Both the position numbers and the translations under genes were made by a program. Below are positions 5,303 through 10,275 of a stretch of 64,000 nt of DNA, in pieces. This DNA is from Enterobacter sp. JUb54. Lineage in GTDB: Bacteria; Pseudomonadota; Gammaproteobacteria; Enterobacterales; Enterobacteriaceae. Location: assembly GCF_014298075.1 (NCBI RefSeq), contig NZ_CP060418.1, forward strand, positions 1,426,001 through 1,490,000. Direction: 5' to 3'. How positions within the stretch are numbered: position 1 is the first letter of the stretch; each line of letters opens with the position of its first letter. The notes beneath the pieces were generated by a model. That model saw only the letters and a list, made by a program, of their open reading frames with translations, was not told where the DNA came from and ran no database searches.

Positions 5303-7000
5303 ATGCAATTCACCCATAAGAAAAACCGTTCTCTGTATATCCCTTACGCTGGCCCCGTTCTGCTCGAATTCCCCCTTCTCAACAAAGGTAGCGCCTTCAG
5401 CATGGAAGAGCGCAGCAGCTTTAACCTGCTGGGCCTGCTGCCTGAAGTCGTTGAAACCATCGAAGAGCAAGCTGAACGTGCCTGGATCCAGTACCAGGGA
5501 TTTAAAACTGAGATCGATAAACACATTTACCTGCGCAACATTCAGGACACCAACGAAACGCTGTTTTACCGCCTGATCGGCAACCATCTCGACGAGATGA
5601 TGCCGGTTATCTATACCCCGACCGTCGGCGCGGCCTGTGAACGTTTCTCCGAGATCTACCGCCGCTCACGCGGGGTCTTTATCTCCTATCAGAACCGCCA
5701 CAACCTTGACGACATCCTGCAAAACGTCCCGAACCACAACGTCAAAGTTATCGTCGTCACCGACGGTGAACGTATTCTCGGTCTTGGTGACCAGGGCATC
5801 GGCGGGATGGGGATCCCGATCGGCAAACTGTCGCTGTATACCACCTGCGGCGGTATCAGCCCGGCCTATACCCTGCCGATCGTGCTGGATGTCGGCACCA
5901 ACAACCAGCAGCTGCTCGACGATCCGCTGTATATGGGCTGGCGTCATCCGCGTATTACCGATGACGACTATTACCAGTTTGTCGATGACGTGATCCAGGC
6001 GATTAAACACCGCTGGCCGGACGTTCTGCTGCAGTTCGAAGATTTCGCGCAGAAGAACGCCATGCCGCTGCTTAACCGCTATCGTAATGAAATTTGTTCA
6101 TTCAACGATGATATTCAGGGTACTGCTTCGGTTACCGTCGGCACGCTGATTGCCGCCAGTCGCGGCGCGGGAAGCCAGCTGAGCGAACAGAAAATTGTCT
6201 TCCTCGGCGCCGGTTCTGCCGGTTGCGGTATCGCCGAGCAGATCATCGCGCAGATCCAGCGTGAAGGACTGAGTGAAGAAGAAGCACGCCGGCGCGTCTT
6301 TATGGTTGACCGTTTCGGCCTGCTGACCGACGCCATGCCTAATCTGCTGCCGTTCCAGAGCAAGCTGGTGCAGAAGCGCGACAACCTGCAGCAGTGGGAC
6401 ACCACCAACGAAGTCCTGTCCCTGCTCGACGTGGTGCGTAACGTCAAACCGAATATTCTGATCGGCGTGTCTGGCCAGCCGGGCCTGTTCACCGAAGAGA
6501 TTATTCGCGAGATGCATAAACACTGCCCGCGTCCGATCGTGATGCCGCTGTCGAACCCGACCTCACGAGTGGAAGCGACGCCGCAGAACATCCTGAGCTG
6601 GACCGACGGCGAAGCGCTGGTTGCCACCGGCAGCCCGTTTGCGCCAGTCACCCTCAAAGGCAAGCAGTATGTAATTGCCCAGTGCAACAACTCCTATATC
6701 TTCCCGGGTATCGGTCTTGGGGTTATTGCCTCTGGCGCTTCCAGAGTCACGGAAGACATGCTGATGGCCGCCAGCGAAACCCTGGCAAAACACTCGCCGC
6801 TGGTCAACAACGGCGAAGGCCCGGTGCTGCCGGAGCTGAAAGACATCCAGACCGTTTCGCGCGCCATCGCCTTTGCGGTCGGGAAAGTCGCCCAGGAGCA
6901 AGGTGTCGCGGTCAAGACTTCGGCCGAAGCGCTGCTGCAGTCCATCAGCGATAACTTCTGGCTGCCGGAGTACCGCAACTACCGCCGGACCTCGATCTGA
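5303..7000 (+). CDS. maeA: NAD-dependent malic enzyme MaeA (SfcA)
   Basis: A 565-residue cytoplasmic enzyme that oxidatively decarboxylates malate to pyruvate with NAD+, linking the TCA cycle to pyruvate during growth on C4 acids. It is near-identical in length and sequence to E. coli MaeA from [20 protein letters not shown] to the C-terminal YRRTSI. The malic-enzyme signature FNDDIQGTA lies near residue 270 and the NAD-binding loop [11 protein letters not shown] near 305. ATG at 5303 follows GGAG. The first six residues differ from E. coli, as is common. It is a single-gene unit with its own terminator. Confidence 0.97.
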
Positions 7001-7031
7001 TTGTTCGCTGGACGCGTTCGATAAGCTTAAC

Positions 7032-7057
7032 AGGCCTGCTTGCAGGCCCTTTTTTTT
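7032..7057 (+). terminator. Rho-independent terminator after maeA
   Basis: Stem AGGCCTGC-tt-GCAGGCC followed by eight T. Confidence 0.9.
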
Positions 7058-7155
7058 GTGCCCGCCCCCACCATCTTTTGTCACTAGCCAAATCCCGGCA
7101 AGGGTTCTACACTGCCTCTACCCATCAACCTACTGGATAAAATAAGGAGGACCCC

Positions 7156-7239
7156 ATGCTGTTACGTGAAATATCGACTTTTTCACTGACATTTGGTCAT
7201 CGTACCCGCTCAAGCGTTATCGATATCGTGCTGCGATAA
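7156..7239 (+). CDS. Putative 27-residue leader peptide upstream of the ABC-F gene
   Basis: This small ORF starts with ATG at 7156 and has one of the best Shine-Dalgarno sequences in the window (AAGGAGG at 7144-7150, five-base spacing). It encodes 27 residues beginning MLLREISTFS and ending DIVLR, and ends with TAA at 7237-7239, 115 bases before the ABC-F start. The stop codon lies inside the right arm of a strong hairpin. I do not recognise the peptide. Placement and the strong ribosome site suggest a regulatory leader peptide rather than a stand-alone small protein, but translation is not proved. Confidence 0.55.
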   Translation: MLLREISTFSLTFGHRTRSSVIDIVLR

Positions 7240-7300
7240 CTTCGGCTTGAGCGAAGACACCAGAGACTAACTCCCTTCCCTCGGGCTTACCGGGTTATCG
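7207..7300 (+). promoter_or_regulatory. Structured leader with alternative pairings before the ABC-F gene
   Basis: The hairpin CGCTCAAGC GTTATCG (7207-7222) pairs with CGATAAC ttcg GCTTGAGCG (7234-7253): 16 pairs with a 4-base bulge. A second GTTATCG at 7294-7300 can pair with the same CGATAAC at 7234-7240, so two conformations exclude each other. The leader-peptide stop codon lies within CGATAAC, so a ribosome halted there would block both pairings. A further small hairpin, AGGCAT-ttct-ATGCCT, lies at 7317-7332. No U-run is present, so control of translation or Rho access is likelier than intrinsic termination. Confidence 0.55.
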
Positions 7301-7354
7301 TCAGCGATGTTTGACGAGGCATTTCTATGCCTGTAACTCTTGAGTAAGTTCACG

Positions 7355-9070
7355 ATGAGTACATTATTTACCGCACAATCCCTGCATGTTGAAACGGCAT
7401 TCGGGCCGCTTTTCATCGACCTCTCTTTTACGCTGAAAAAAGGCGACCGCATTGGCCTGATAGGCCACAACGGTTGTGGCAAAAGCACCCTGCTACAGGT
7501 ACTGGACGGCACGTTGACGCCGAATTCCGGCAGCGTGGCGCTGGCGCACCATTGCCTGCTGGCGCGGGTTGAACAACATATCGCCGCTGATCTGCTGCAA
7601 CATCCTCTGGTTGAAGTGGTGCTGGCACGCCTGCCCGCCGCCGAGCGCGAACGCCAACGCTGGCAGGCTGAACGGCTGCTGGCGGAGATGGGGTTTGTCG
7701 CCGCGGAATTCAGCCAGTGCGCCGCGACGCTTAGCGGCGGTCAGCATACTCGACTGCTGCTGGCACGGGCATTGATTCAACAACCGGACCTGTTACTGCT
7801 GGACGAGCCGGGCAACCATCTCGATCTCCCGACCTTGCTGTGGCTGGAAAGCTTCTTGCAAACCTGGCAGGGGAGCTTCGTCGTGGTGTCGCACGATAAC
7901 CTCTTACTGGATGCTGTAACTAATACCAGTTGGATCCTGCGCGACCACACCCTGCACGCCTTCTCTTTGCCCTGCACCGCCGCCCGTTTAGCGCTGGCGG
8001 AACGGGATGAAAGTGACGCGCTGCGTCATAAGGCCGAACAGCGAGAAATTGACCGCGTCAGCGCCAGCGCCAAACGGCTGGCGACCTGGGGACAGGTCTA
8101 TGACAACGAAGATCTCTCGCGCAAAGCCAAGCAGATGGAAAAGCAGGTCACCCGCCTGAAGGAGAGCCAGACCGAACTGACCAACGGCACCCCGTGGCGA
8201 CTGGCGTTAAACGGCGATGCGCTGCGCGCTGACCGGTTGCTTGAAATCTCGCAGCTCCCGGTCGCTCCGGCCCCAGGCCTGCCTGCCCTGTTCACCGCCG
8301 AACACGCGCGCCTGCGCAGCGGCGATCGGGTGGCAATCATGGGGCGTAACGGCGGCGGCAAATCGTCGCTGCTGCGCCTGCTCTGGCGGCAGATGCAGGA
8401 GTCGGTTGTGGTTGACGGACTCAGCCTGCATCCCCGGCTGAAGCCTGGCTACTATGACCAGTCGTTGCGTCAGTTGCCGGATGACGCCACCTTACTGGAG
8501 GCACTGGAACCTTTTGAACCCACCGCGGAATCCCGCAAACGGGCGCTGATCGGCGCCGGTTTTGGCTGGAGTCGTCACGGGCAAAAGGTCAGTACCCTCA
8601 GCGGCGGCGAGCGCTCGCGGCTGCTGTTTGTCGGCCTGTCGTTGGCTCGTTACAGTCTGCTGTTGCTGGATGAACCGACCAACCATCTGGATATGGAAGG
8701 CAAAGAGGCGCTGGCAGGCTGCCTGCGGGACTATCCCGGCGGCCTGCTGTTGGTCAGTCACGACCGTCAGCTGATCGACCAGAGCTGTAACCGCTTCTGG
8801 TTGATTGACGAAAACGGACTGAGCGAGTGGTACAGCGCGGATGAGATTTACGCGCGTCTGCGCGAGACGACGCACCAGCCCGCCATGCACGTTGCTAGCA
8901 CGACGGCACCCGCAGCGCCTGCTGAAGATGAGGACGATCTGCTGGAACAGCTGATTGTGCTGGAGCAACGGCTGGCGGAAGATCTGTCCCGCAAGCCGAA
9001 GCACCAGAAGCCCCAGCTTCAGGCGCAATGGCGAGAGGCTATCGCTGCGCTTCATGCCAGACTGCAATAA
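7355..9070 (+). CDS. ABC-F family ATPase (ribosome-associated type)
   Basis: A 571-residue soluble protein with two ABC ATPase domains and no membrane segments, which defines the ABC-F class; characterised members act on the ribosome (translation factors or antibiotic protection). Domain 1: Walker A GHNGCGKST (37-45), signature LSGGQHTR near 126, Walker B LLLLDEPGNHLD near 147, with Gly replacing the usual Thr of DEPTNHLD. A charged linker follows near 215-270. Domain 2: Walker A GRNGGGKSS near 329, LSGGERSR near 415 and LLLLDEPTNHLD near 436. A charged C-terminal extension ends the protein. ATG at 7355 has a weak ribosome site (GAGTAAG); an in-frame TTG at 7340 is the alternative. I cannot assign it to Uup, EttA, YbiT or YheS; it looks like a separate subfamily. 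Confidence 0.85.
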   Translation: MSTLFTAQSLHVETAFGPLFIDLSFTLKKGDRIGLIGHNGCGKSTLLQVLDGTLTPNSGSVALAHHCLLARVEQHIAADLLQHPLVEVVLARLPAAERERQRWQAERLLAEMGFVAAEFSQCAATLSGGQHTRLLLARALIQQPDLLLLDEPGNHLDLPTLLWLESFLQTWQGSFVVVSHDNLLLDAVTNTSWILRDHTLHAFSLPCTAARLALAERDESDALRHKAEQREIDRVSASAKRLATWGQVYDNEDLSRKAKQMEKQVTRLKESQTELTNGTPWRLALNGDALRADRLLEISQLPVAPAPGLPALFTAEHARLRSGDRVAIMGRNGGGKSSLLRLLWRQMQESVVVDGLSLHPRLKPGYYDQSLRQLPDDATLLEALEPFEPTAESRKRALIGAGFGWSRHGQKVSTLSGGERSRLLFVGLSLARYSLLLLDEPTNHLDMEGKEALAGCLRDYPGGLLLVSHDRQLIDQSCNRFWLIDENGLSEWYSADEIYARLRETTHQPAMHVASTTAPAAPAEDEDDLLEQLIVLEQRLAEDLSRKPKHQKPQLQAQWREAIAALHARLQ

Positions 9071-9093: not shown

Positions 9094-10074
9094 TCACCCC
9101 TTAGCCGGCTTTTCCTCACCAACGGTCGAGGAGATTATTCTGCTGAACTGCTGTTCGGTCATCATCATCCCCCACTGATCGCCCTGCCACTCTTTAGACA
9201 GCGTAAATCCGAAGGATTCATACAGCTTGCGCGCGGCGTTCAGACCGCTGAAGGTCCACAGCTGCACCCCCGAAAAGGCGTGGCGATCGCAGAAGGCCAT
9301 CGCCTGCGCCAACAGGCGTCGTCCGACGCCGCTGCCCCGGCAGCTGTCATCAAGGATAAACCAGCGCAGATGGGCCTGGTTATCACCGAGGTCTTCGCCA
9401 TCGATGGCCACCGAGCCGACAATCGTGCCGTTGTGTATCGCCAGCCAGATTTGATTGCGTTCGGCGCTAAGCCGTGGGGAAAATTCCGCCACGCCCCTGG
9501 CGACTTTGCCCTCAAAAAAGTGACCAAAATTATAGTTCCGGGCGTAGTACTCGCCGTGCATCTGCGCGATACGGCCAATCATTCCAGGATGATAGCCGGT
9601 GACGATCTCAATACGCTTTCCGGCCTCCGCCAGCGGCCGATCGCGGCATTGTGCCAGCGCCTGCGCGTAGGCGTTGAGCCCCTGCGCCACGCCGATCTGC
9701 TGTTCAGCATTGAGATGCGCCAGCGCGTCAACCACCCGCATTGCGCCGTATTCGTTGATCCTGACCACCGTTGCCCGGCCCTTATCCGTCAGCTCAAGCT
9801 GCTTAAAGCGGGCGTCGTTCTCGGCGGTTTTCTCCTCAATTTCCCCCGCCGCCAGCAGCCGCGACAGCATGCGGCTGACGCTCGATTTCTCAAGGCCCAG
9901 AATCTGTACCAGCTGCGCGGCGGTCATCGCCCCGTGTCCGGCGATCTCCAGCAGCGTATGGACGGCGGAGGGGGAATACTCGGTTGCTGCGAGAGTGGAA
10001 TTCATAAAGCCGAGTTCGCGAACCATCAGGCGGGAGGCGCGGCGGATATCATTGATCAGCGGTGTATTAGTCAT
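9094..10074 (-). CDS. MarR-GNAT fusion (regulator plus N-acetyltransferase)
   Basis: A 326-residue protein. Residues about 1-140 are a MarR winged helix (TAAQLVQILGLEKSSVSRMLSRL, then a wing with ENDARFKQLELTDKG). Residues about 155-320 are a GNAT acetyltransferase with the acetyl-CoA loop CRGSGVGRRLL near 248. Such fusions are common in proteobacteria; the acetylated substrate is usually unknown. ATG at 10074 starts the MarR domain; an upstream extension to 10137 is not conserved-looking. The gene is monocistronic and its promoter region holds inverted repeats suited to autoregulation. Confidence 0.85.
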   Translation of the reverse strand: MTNTPLINDIRRASRLMVRELGFMNSTLAATEYSPSAVHTLLEIAGHGAMTAAQLVQILGLEKSSVSRMLSRLLAAGEIEEKTAENDARFKQLELTDKGRATVVRINEYGAMRVVDALAHLNAEQQIGVAQGLNAYAQALAQCRDRPLAEAGKRIEIVTGYHPGMIGRIAQMHGEYYARNYNFGHFFEGKVARGVAEFSPRLSAERNQIWLAIHNGTIVGSVAIDGEDLGDNQAHLRWFILDDSCRGSGVGRRLLAQAMAFCDRHAFSGVQLWTFSGLNAARKLYESFGFTLSKEWQGDQWGMMMTEQQFSRIISSTVGEEKPAKG

Positions 10075-10099
10075 TGGCGTCGTAGCAAGGTGATTTATA

Positions 10100-10122
10100 G
10101 TTGCACAATACAACCATTGTTG
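10100..10122 (-). promoter_or_regulatory. Putative MarR operator
   Basis: GTTG-N7-CAAC-N4-GTTG, overlapping inverted repeats 26 bases upstream of the MarR-GNAT start. Position and half-site size suit a MarR dimer. Inference only. Confidence 0.4.
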
Positions 10123-10275
10123 ATATTGCCCTGTCAACCGGCGTGGCTGGCGGCACCCGGCCCGTCACTGGCGGGATATTCTGGCTTATCGCCAGCGAGT
10201 CAGAAGAAAAAATGGCAGGCGGTAGTCTTTGCAGATTGAGTGGTTAACAGGCGCCGTCAGACGCCTGTTTTTATC

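Follow-up and report, generated by a model that had tools for sequence, protein, structure and literature searches.

Translational attenuators of the ermC type (PMC11264731) are four-segment leaders of erm genes. In these the leader open reading frame (ORF) overlaps segment 1, the pairings 1:2 and 3:4 compete with pairing 2:3, and the ribosome-binding site of the downstream gene lies in segment 4. The same layout is found in the stretch of DNA analysed here, 64,000 nucleotides of Enterobacter sp. JUb54 (NZ_CP060418.1, positions 1,426,001 to 1,490,000; hereafter the window), ahead of a gene for an ABC-F ATPase, and the leader of this gene is probably an ermC-like ribosome-mediated translational attenuator. 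As judged by sequence comparison, the leader ORF, its reading frame, a residue pair inside the peptide, the helices 2:3 and outer 1:2, a hairpin designated E and the linkage to one ABC-F family are conserved. The locus differs from the erm leaders in preceding an ABC-F gene, in occurring in Gammaproteobacteria and in the free RNA of the window, which has a nested 1:4 and 2:3 fold as its energy minimum; the comparison at the level of sequence was that of the Rfam scan given below.

Upstream ORFs (uORFs) preceding ABC-F genes have been described for vmlR, vmlR2, cplR and lsaA, which are induced by ribosome stalling and whose uORFs have a consensus of only three to four residues (MIN, MK[L/Q], MR[I/M] and MAGN) (PMC9226507; PMC10201436). 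The control exerted by the Gram-positive uORFs includes premature termination of transcription (PMC9226507; PMC10201436; PMC10314930), to which translation attenuation is added in the descriptions of vmlR and cplR (PMC9226507; PMC10201436). The present leader, in contrast, is 25-29 codons long and carries a conserved residue pair inside the peptide, and no terminator-like site follows it before the gene. In msrDL-msrD a leader peptide controls an ABC-F gene, as is presumed here, but the peptide is MYLIFM, the stall occurs at the stop codon, the terminator is Rho-independent, and the system has been spread on a mobile element, also into some Gram-negative species (PMC10314930). An enterobacterial uORF for which stalled ribosomes were proposed to unmask a downstream ribosome-binding site is toiL-topAI of E. 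coli, likened here by its description, which controls a toxin-antitoxin operon and not an ABC-F gene (PMC12121999).

With ribosome-mediated attenuators the leader shares a short ORF having a ribosome-binding site, recognised by conservation, and mutually exclusive pairings, one of which overlaps the ORF. The marks of VmlR/MsrD-type transcription attenuators were not found, as in the window there is no intrinsic terminator between uORF and gene and the uORF comprises 25-29 codons compared with about 3-6. Because no terminator-like site lies between leader and gene in the window and the leader is long, it does not belong to the group of transcription attenuators. No earlier description of a leader of this ABC-F gene was found in the open-licence part of PMC; an earlier inspection of this DNA, the sequence-only reading, had supposed that such control of a chromosomal enterobacterial ABC-F gene would be new, which is consistent with the searchable literature.

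The leader reading frame and its residue pair

The named ABC-F loci compared are those of the best 80 of the 566 relatives found; L numbers are used below for these and for further loci of the wider sets. Alignment A1, obtained with MAFFT, contains 77 of 81 candidates (the window and the 80 loci), L098, two duplicates and L074, which carries an insertion, being left out. Alignment A2 has 36 chosen rows, and A3 consists of 85 chosen sources, 83 of them distinct, fitted to the covariance model R1, the structure of which contains outer 1:2 and hairpin E and is without helix 2:3. The elements of the leader ORF and the gene that it precedes are as follows.

7144..7150, + strand: leader Shine-Dalgarno sequence AAGGAGG, read directly
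7156..7239, + strand: leader ORF of 27 codons, MLLREISTFSLTFGHRTRSSVIDIVLR, its TAA stop lying inside CGATAAC (7234-7240)
7192..7197, + strand: Phe13-Gly14, candidate arrest motif, in fixed register to the CUCA of segment 1
7355..9070, + strand: ABC-F ATPase gene, 571 amino acids, presumed to be the controlled gene, NF000355 match

The AAGGAGG sequence is exact ahead of the leader ORF in 79 of the 80 named loci, the exception being L098 with a weaker site, and all six positions of AGGAGG match in 78/85. The leader is 27 codons long in 72 of the 77 aligned relatives of A1, and in the wider set 84 of 85 have an ORF of 25-29 codons whose end falls within segment 2 or shortly behind it; the ORF picked for the remaining sequence, L054, was spurious, being in the wrong frame. 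In this sequence (L054:2300-2512, Phytobacter massiliensis JC163) a deletion of 2 nt near the end of the leader, either a real variant or a sequencing error, gives a frame of 35 codons, and the RNA elements are kept. CGATAAC and two GTTATCG copies (7216-7222 and 7294-7300) lie exactly where the sequence-only reading had placed them, as do all other features for which it gave coordinates, and the Shine-Dalgarno sequence and the 27-codon ORF that it named are present.

The codon test was carried out on A3 without L054 and L098, the 83 leaders being thinned to 52, and on 72 of the 77 rows of A1, 39 after thinning. None of the 52 thinned leaders had an in-frame stop, compared with 17 and 46 in the other two frames, frame 0 being open partly by choice. 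For codons -20 to -11 only 3/300 shuffles of the columns attained the frame-0 score, as against 61/300 and 287/300 in the other frames. This conserved leader ORF with its coding signal, together with the competing RNA pairings described below, bears out the earlier proposal of a control region before the ABC-F gene.

The residue pair was found in 83 of 85 sequences as [F/L/Y/I] followed by [G/S/W/A], in frame, the first codon lying 17-15 nt and the second 14-12 nt ahead of CUCA. L158 and L185 have Phe-Gly one nt nearer to CUCA, and in L098 the distance from motif to CUCA is kept although the leader stop has moved. The leading edge of a ribosome usually lies at +16 from the P site; with Phe in the P site it would coincide with position 7208, where segment 1 begins. 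Other known types of arrest were sought in the 72 unique leaders, L054 being left out. The macrolide +x+ motif was present anywhere in only 15/72 and was rejected as a general feature, polyproline or RAPP-like arrest sequences occurred in 0/72, and no residue, counted singly and not in runs, occurred more than six times in any leader, which dismisses amino-acid-specific attenuation.

The conserved length and motif could also be understood if the leader peptide were a small protein acting in trans. Its N-terminal half, however, is highly variable, in the loci examined the ORF and the ABC-F gene are arranged in cis, and there is one RNA-model match per genome, so such a function is scarcely to be expected.

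Competing helices and the predicted effect of a stalled ribosome

The leader ORF and the ABC-F gene are separated by a structured RNA of 115 nt, and the pairing elements reach from the ORF to the start region of the gene.

7166..7186, + strand: hairpin H0 inside the ORF, GUGAA (7166-7170) with UUCAC (7182-7186)
7208..7222, + strand: segment 1, with the core GCUCAAGC at 7208-7215, in the leader ORF; the 5' arm of a 16-pair hairpin
7230..7256, + strand: segment 2 (GCUG CGAUAAC ... GCUUGAGC GAAG), holding the leader stop; pairs with segment 1 or 3
7275..7305, + strand: segment 3 (CUUC.CUCGGGC ... GUUAUCG.CAGC); pairs with segment 2
7317..7332, + strand: hairpin E, (A)GGCAU:AUGCC(U)
7333..7348, + strand: segment 4 (GUAACUCUUGAGUAAG); its possible partners are segment 1 (7209-7214) and segment 3 (7286-7290)
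7342-7348, + strand: presumed weak Shine-Dalgarno sequence of the ABC-F gene, GAGUAAG, in segment 4

The region 7135-7370 has a fold energy of -73.1 kcal/mol (z -3.66), and 0/200 shuffles were as low. In the energy minimum CGATAAC is paired with the second GTTATCG and 7208-7214 with 7339-7345; the hairpin in which CGATAAC pairs with the first GTTATCG reached, when forced, only -67.3 compared with -73.1. Helix 2:3 (7230-7256 with 7275-7305, 23 pairs) was paired in 94.2% of the cells of the 83 distinct A3 sequences, and its 38 double-changed cells compare with 9.5 in shuffles, all six slides being exceeded on every measure. Outer 1:2 (7208-7215 with 7245-7252, GCUCAAGC:GCUUGAGC) and hairpin E, like 2:3, covary above shuffles and slides. 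The former showed 15 double-changed cells compared with 6.0, the same AU to GC change being present in 6/77 sequences of the independent MAFFT alignment A1. Hairpin E was strongly supported (57 cells compared with 16.2), one of its pairs occurring as AU in 37, GC in 32, GU in 5 and CG in 1; it corresponds to the small hairpin at 7317-7332 that had been seen earlier in the window. Helix 1:4 (7209-7214 with 7339-7344) was paired in 95.4% of cells and covaries weakly (3 cells compared with 0.4), and in H0 67-77 of the 77 sequences of A1 were paired per position, with one GC to AU double change.

The 16-pair hairpin described in the sequence-only reading exists in the window (7207-7222 with 7234-7253, with a 4-nt bulge). 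In relatives its outer stem is conserved and its upper half (7216-7222 with 7234-7240) is not; in the latter 76.5% of cells were paired, a value that 211/500 shuffles also reached, its pair 7220:7236 was formed in only 34 of the 83 distinct relatives, and no covariation was found, for which reasons it was rejected as a conserved helix. The suggested choice of CGATAAC between the two GTTATCG copies holds on the side of the second, in the covarying helix 2:3, and fails on the side of the first, and the conservation expected of the ORF and of both copies was likewise found for the ORF and the second copy only. A tiny ORF, MFDEAFLCL (from 7307), is present in the window as described; as a conserved part of the leader it was rejected, 28 of the 77 aligned relatives having no ATG, GTG or TTG start and its length being variable.

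Duplex energies were calculated for 65 of the 85 sequences, after thinning, against 60 single-base shuffles of one segment. The duplex lay below all 60 shuffles in 62/65 for 2:3, in 49 for 1:4, in 44 for 1:2 and in 18 for 3:4, and in 0/65 for the control duplexes 1:3 and 2:4. Two further observations concern this RNA. The consensus fold lets the conserved CUUCC (7275-7279) pair with the leader Shine-Dalgarno sequence (7144-7150), a possible further layer of control. In L074 (Buttiauxella izardii) segments 2 and 3 are set apart, compared with relatives, by some 45-50 additional nt, possibly a repeat element, at about 155-100 nt ahead of the start of the ABC-F gene, the leader and both pairing segments being kept.

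The influence of the ribosome position was predicted by masked folding of 42 chosen sequences (L164 is without a leader by the selection rule), a mask of 29 nt being placed at each codon in turn. The mean unpaired value of the ABC-F start region was 0.37 in the free RNA, rose from codon 14, amounted to 0.50-0.51 at codons 16-20 and was 0.34 with the ribosome at the end; in the window itself the value was 0.23 in the free RNA, 0.54 on stalling and again 0.23 with the ribosome at the end. The stalled state exceeded the free one in 37/42 sequences and the stop state in 39/42, and the mean gain on stalling was 0.138, compared with 0.006 in 168 shuffles, 3.0% of which reached 0.138. When segment 2 was kept unpaired during the stall the value dropped to 0.42, being lower in 34/42, and because freeing segment 2 lowers the opening of the start region, helix 2:3 contributes to the predicted opening. 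The folding model predicts that the ABC-F start opens with a ribosome near codons 14-22 and not at the leader stop.

The following course of events is proposed, for which we infer leader translation, the stall, its trigger and a resistance role of the ABC-F protein. Transcription probably begins at a separate promoter that follows the maeA terminator, and a ribosome would translate the 27-codon leader from the strong AAGGAGG site. If it does not stall, it would leave, segment 1 would be free again and segment 4, with the ABC-F start region, would be closed, either by 1:4 enclosing 2:3, which is the energy minimum, or by the competing 1:2 with 3:4. A stall over roughly codons 14-22, on or just after Phe-Gly, would cover segment 1 and leave segment 2 free; the latter would then hold segment 3, so that segments 1 and 3 could not bind segment 4, the ABC-F ribosome-binding site would open, and the protein would be made. 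The likely signal would be a small molecule that targets the ribosome, or a stall that is relieved by the ABC-F protein itself.

The same RNA switch could be operated by a ribosome stalled at the leader stop through blocked release, and a stall at or near this stop had been taken in the sequence-only reading to choose the fold. Release is blocked at the leader stop in TnaC. The MsrDL peptide of an ABC-F gene stalls at its UAA stop (PMC10314930), and 80/85 of the leaders studied here end in CGA-TAA, most of them with [V/A]LR. A ribosome in that position, however, would cover segment 2, and the ABC-F start is predicted to be closed (0.34 compared with 0.51 at codons 16-18). Codons 18-27 are conserved as RNA, their third positions varying least, and helix 2:3 accounts for the conserved [V/A]LR end, since the third positions are near-constant there, the coding signal is missing and amino-acid changes keep the pairs (Leu to Pro with a CG pair in L085, L086 and L089; Arg to Gln with an AU pair in L160). 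Moreover, L098 keeps CGATAA though it is not read there as a stop. A stop stall was judged unlikely on this basis.

Control might also be exerted on transcription, leader translation or arrest deciding on premature termination, most likely Rho-dependent and between segments 2 and 3. A C-rich, G-poor stretch (7259-7282) lies between these segments, and in toiL-topAI of E. coli repressed translation leads to Rho termination (PMC12121999). Against this, no terminator-like site was found between leader and ABC-F gene in the scan of 6980-7420 of the window, on which an intrinsic terminator controlling the gene there was rejected, and it is around the start of the ABC-F gene that the alternative pairings converge. 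Control of this kind was judged unlikely; both levels may act.

An RNA-only sensor, such as a riboswitch or thermosensor with the ORF as a bystander, would account for the strong folding, for the conservation of codons 18-27 as RNA and for last codons without coding signal. It would not account for AAGGAGG, the near-constant leader length, the codon signal before segment 1 and the fixed Phe-Gly register. Nor did Rfam 15 give a match above the gathering score (best hit E 0.5, 21.7 bits compared with 70, at 7031-7081 on the other strand and before the leader), so that a known Rfam family was rejected as the identity of the leader RNA. We regard this explanation as quite improbable.

Several results weigh against translational attenuation by a stall inside the leader. 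The codon test is modest, codons 2-17 being matched by 13/200 shuffles in the 77-sequence set, and the last nine codons are without coding signal (92/300 shuffles reach the score); the frameshift of L054 also falls late in the leader. Regarding the helices, the 'further pair types' of 2:3, its weakest measure, were reached by 44/500 shuffles, and the pair-type count of outer 1:2 is no better than chance (318/500). Pairing 3:4 is the weakest element (18/65), and the bases that pair in it are not the same in Enterobacteriaceae as in the other families. A pseudoknot, which is beyond the reach of the folding method used, could allow outer 1:2 and 2:3 to form together. No gain on stalling was predicted in 5/42 sequences (L059, L101, L150, L153 and L166), L150, L153 and L166 being clearly reversed. 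Finally, the relatives share ancestry, so that covarying cells are not independent events and the duplex counts are not probabilities.

Distribution, ABC-F family and neighbouring genes

The leader is present before the same ABC-F gene in 80/80 named loci (best 80 of 566), frameshifted in L054. In DNA searches the leader region was detected in 23/60 relatives, among them every one of the 20 genomes of the genus (the own one counted), and in 75/295 genomes of the family, a few of these giving only short matches. The covariance model R1 gave one match per genome in 30/394 genomes of the order, all 30 directly before an ABC-F gene (50.8-100% identity to the query), and in 37/197 genomes of one presumably Vibrio-like family; two other families gave 4/12 and 2/96 genomes, and the class level 1/274, the own one. 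In such RNA-model scans of more than 40 genomes stricter filters applied and weak matches were lost. Because maeA, the gene preceding the leader in the window, is absent from the flank examined in half of the loci (present in only 40/80), the leader travels with the ABC-F gene and not with the genomic place.

Two records deserve a remark. L098, named Alcaligenes faecalis, has the leader, whose stop has moved past CGATAA, and an ABC-F gene at 58% identity, and represents either horizontal transfer or a mislabelled record. L061, a contig labelled Chryseobacterium, contains an enterobacterial maeA and ABC-F region and is probably a mixed or mislabelled assembly.

The nearest named relative among the best 80 of 566 is Raoultella ornithinolytica, with an ABC-F protein 84% identical, though records very near the window may be left out. 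The window protein scored 385.3 bits with NF000355 (ribosomal protection-like), a marginal match to the cut-off of 380; among ten orthologues one was above the cut-off (406.1), one had 353.8 and eight were not listed at E 1e-100. M1, T3 and L4 are invariant at the N-terminus of 25 aligned orthologues. Three further matches (29-31% identity, E up to 1e-20) occur in the own genome. The gene is absent from E. coli, a place covering 80% of the query being found in 0/5426 genomes, four of which had a 68-bp match in uup. Of 72,556 plasmid records 26 had one place covering 80% of leader and gene, and the 20 listed are from Pantoea, Rahnella, Ewingella and Klebsiella. One plasmid record, CP125156.1 of Klebsiella pneumoniae, is 5.37 Mb long and probably a chromosome.

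On the grounds of phylogeny and a patchy occurrence, PAF1 was predicted to be a resistance ABCF of a novel kind, its range comprising Vibrio, Enterobacter, Klebsiella, Serratia and Citrobacter and not Escherichia (PMC6723617). The five genera are all among the named loci (best 80 of 566). By this taxonomic range, which matches that of PAF1 (for Escherichia, E. coli alone was searched by name), the ABC-F protein is a candidate PAF1 member. The terms 'leader peptide' and 'upstream open' do not occur in the main text of PMC6723617, and no leader of PAF1 is described there.

The window lies in a single-contig genome of 5.3 Mb, and the leader is preceded by the following features.

5303-7000: malic enzyme gene maeA
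7033-7058: terminator-like site behind maeA, the only one within 6980-7420
7085..7113, + strand: putative promoter, TAGCCA (7085-7090), a 17-nt spacer and TACACT (7108-7113)

The unit of leader and ABC-F gene may have its own promoter. TACACT, TATACT, TACAAT or TATAAT was seen by eye near the promoter position in 24 of 26 rows inspected (of 85), and a simple hexamer pattern matched there in 45/85; a generic promoter scan did not call the TAGCCA/TACACT site. After the ABC-F gene there is a convergent gene (9094-10137, - strand) with a MarR-like part joined to an acetyltransferase-like part, which was matched in only 5/80 loci (L024-L028) within the flank examined.

Meaning for the ABC-F family

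It is quite possible, though a more tentative proposal than that for the single locus, that a hitherto undescribed Gammaproteobacterial family of drug- or stress-sensing leaders with an internal Phe-Gly-type arrest motif controls the PAF1 ABC-F genes by translational attenuation, PAF1 being an inducible, mostly chromosomal ribosome protection system of Klebsiella, Enterobacter, Serratia and Vibrio that senses a ribosome-binding compound. The principle is known from Gram-positive bacteria and from mobile elements that have reached some Gram-negative species too; here it appears, differently built, ahead of an ABC-F gene that is mostly chromosomal and occurs in many Gram-negative genera. The leader could serve as an easy read-out in a search for the compound that induces it, and the register of Phe-Gly points to the expected site at which the ribosome stops. 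If the gene is opened by stalled ribosomes, this would be independent evidence that the ABC-F protein acts on stalled or drug-bound ribosomes, as predicted for PAF1 (PMC6723617). The leader hints that this poorly understood ABC-F protein is an inducible defence against ribosome-targeting drugs.

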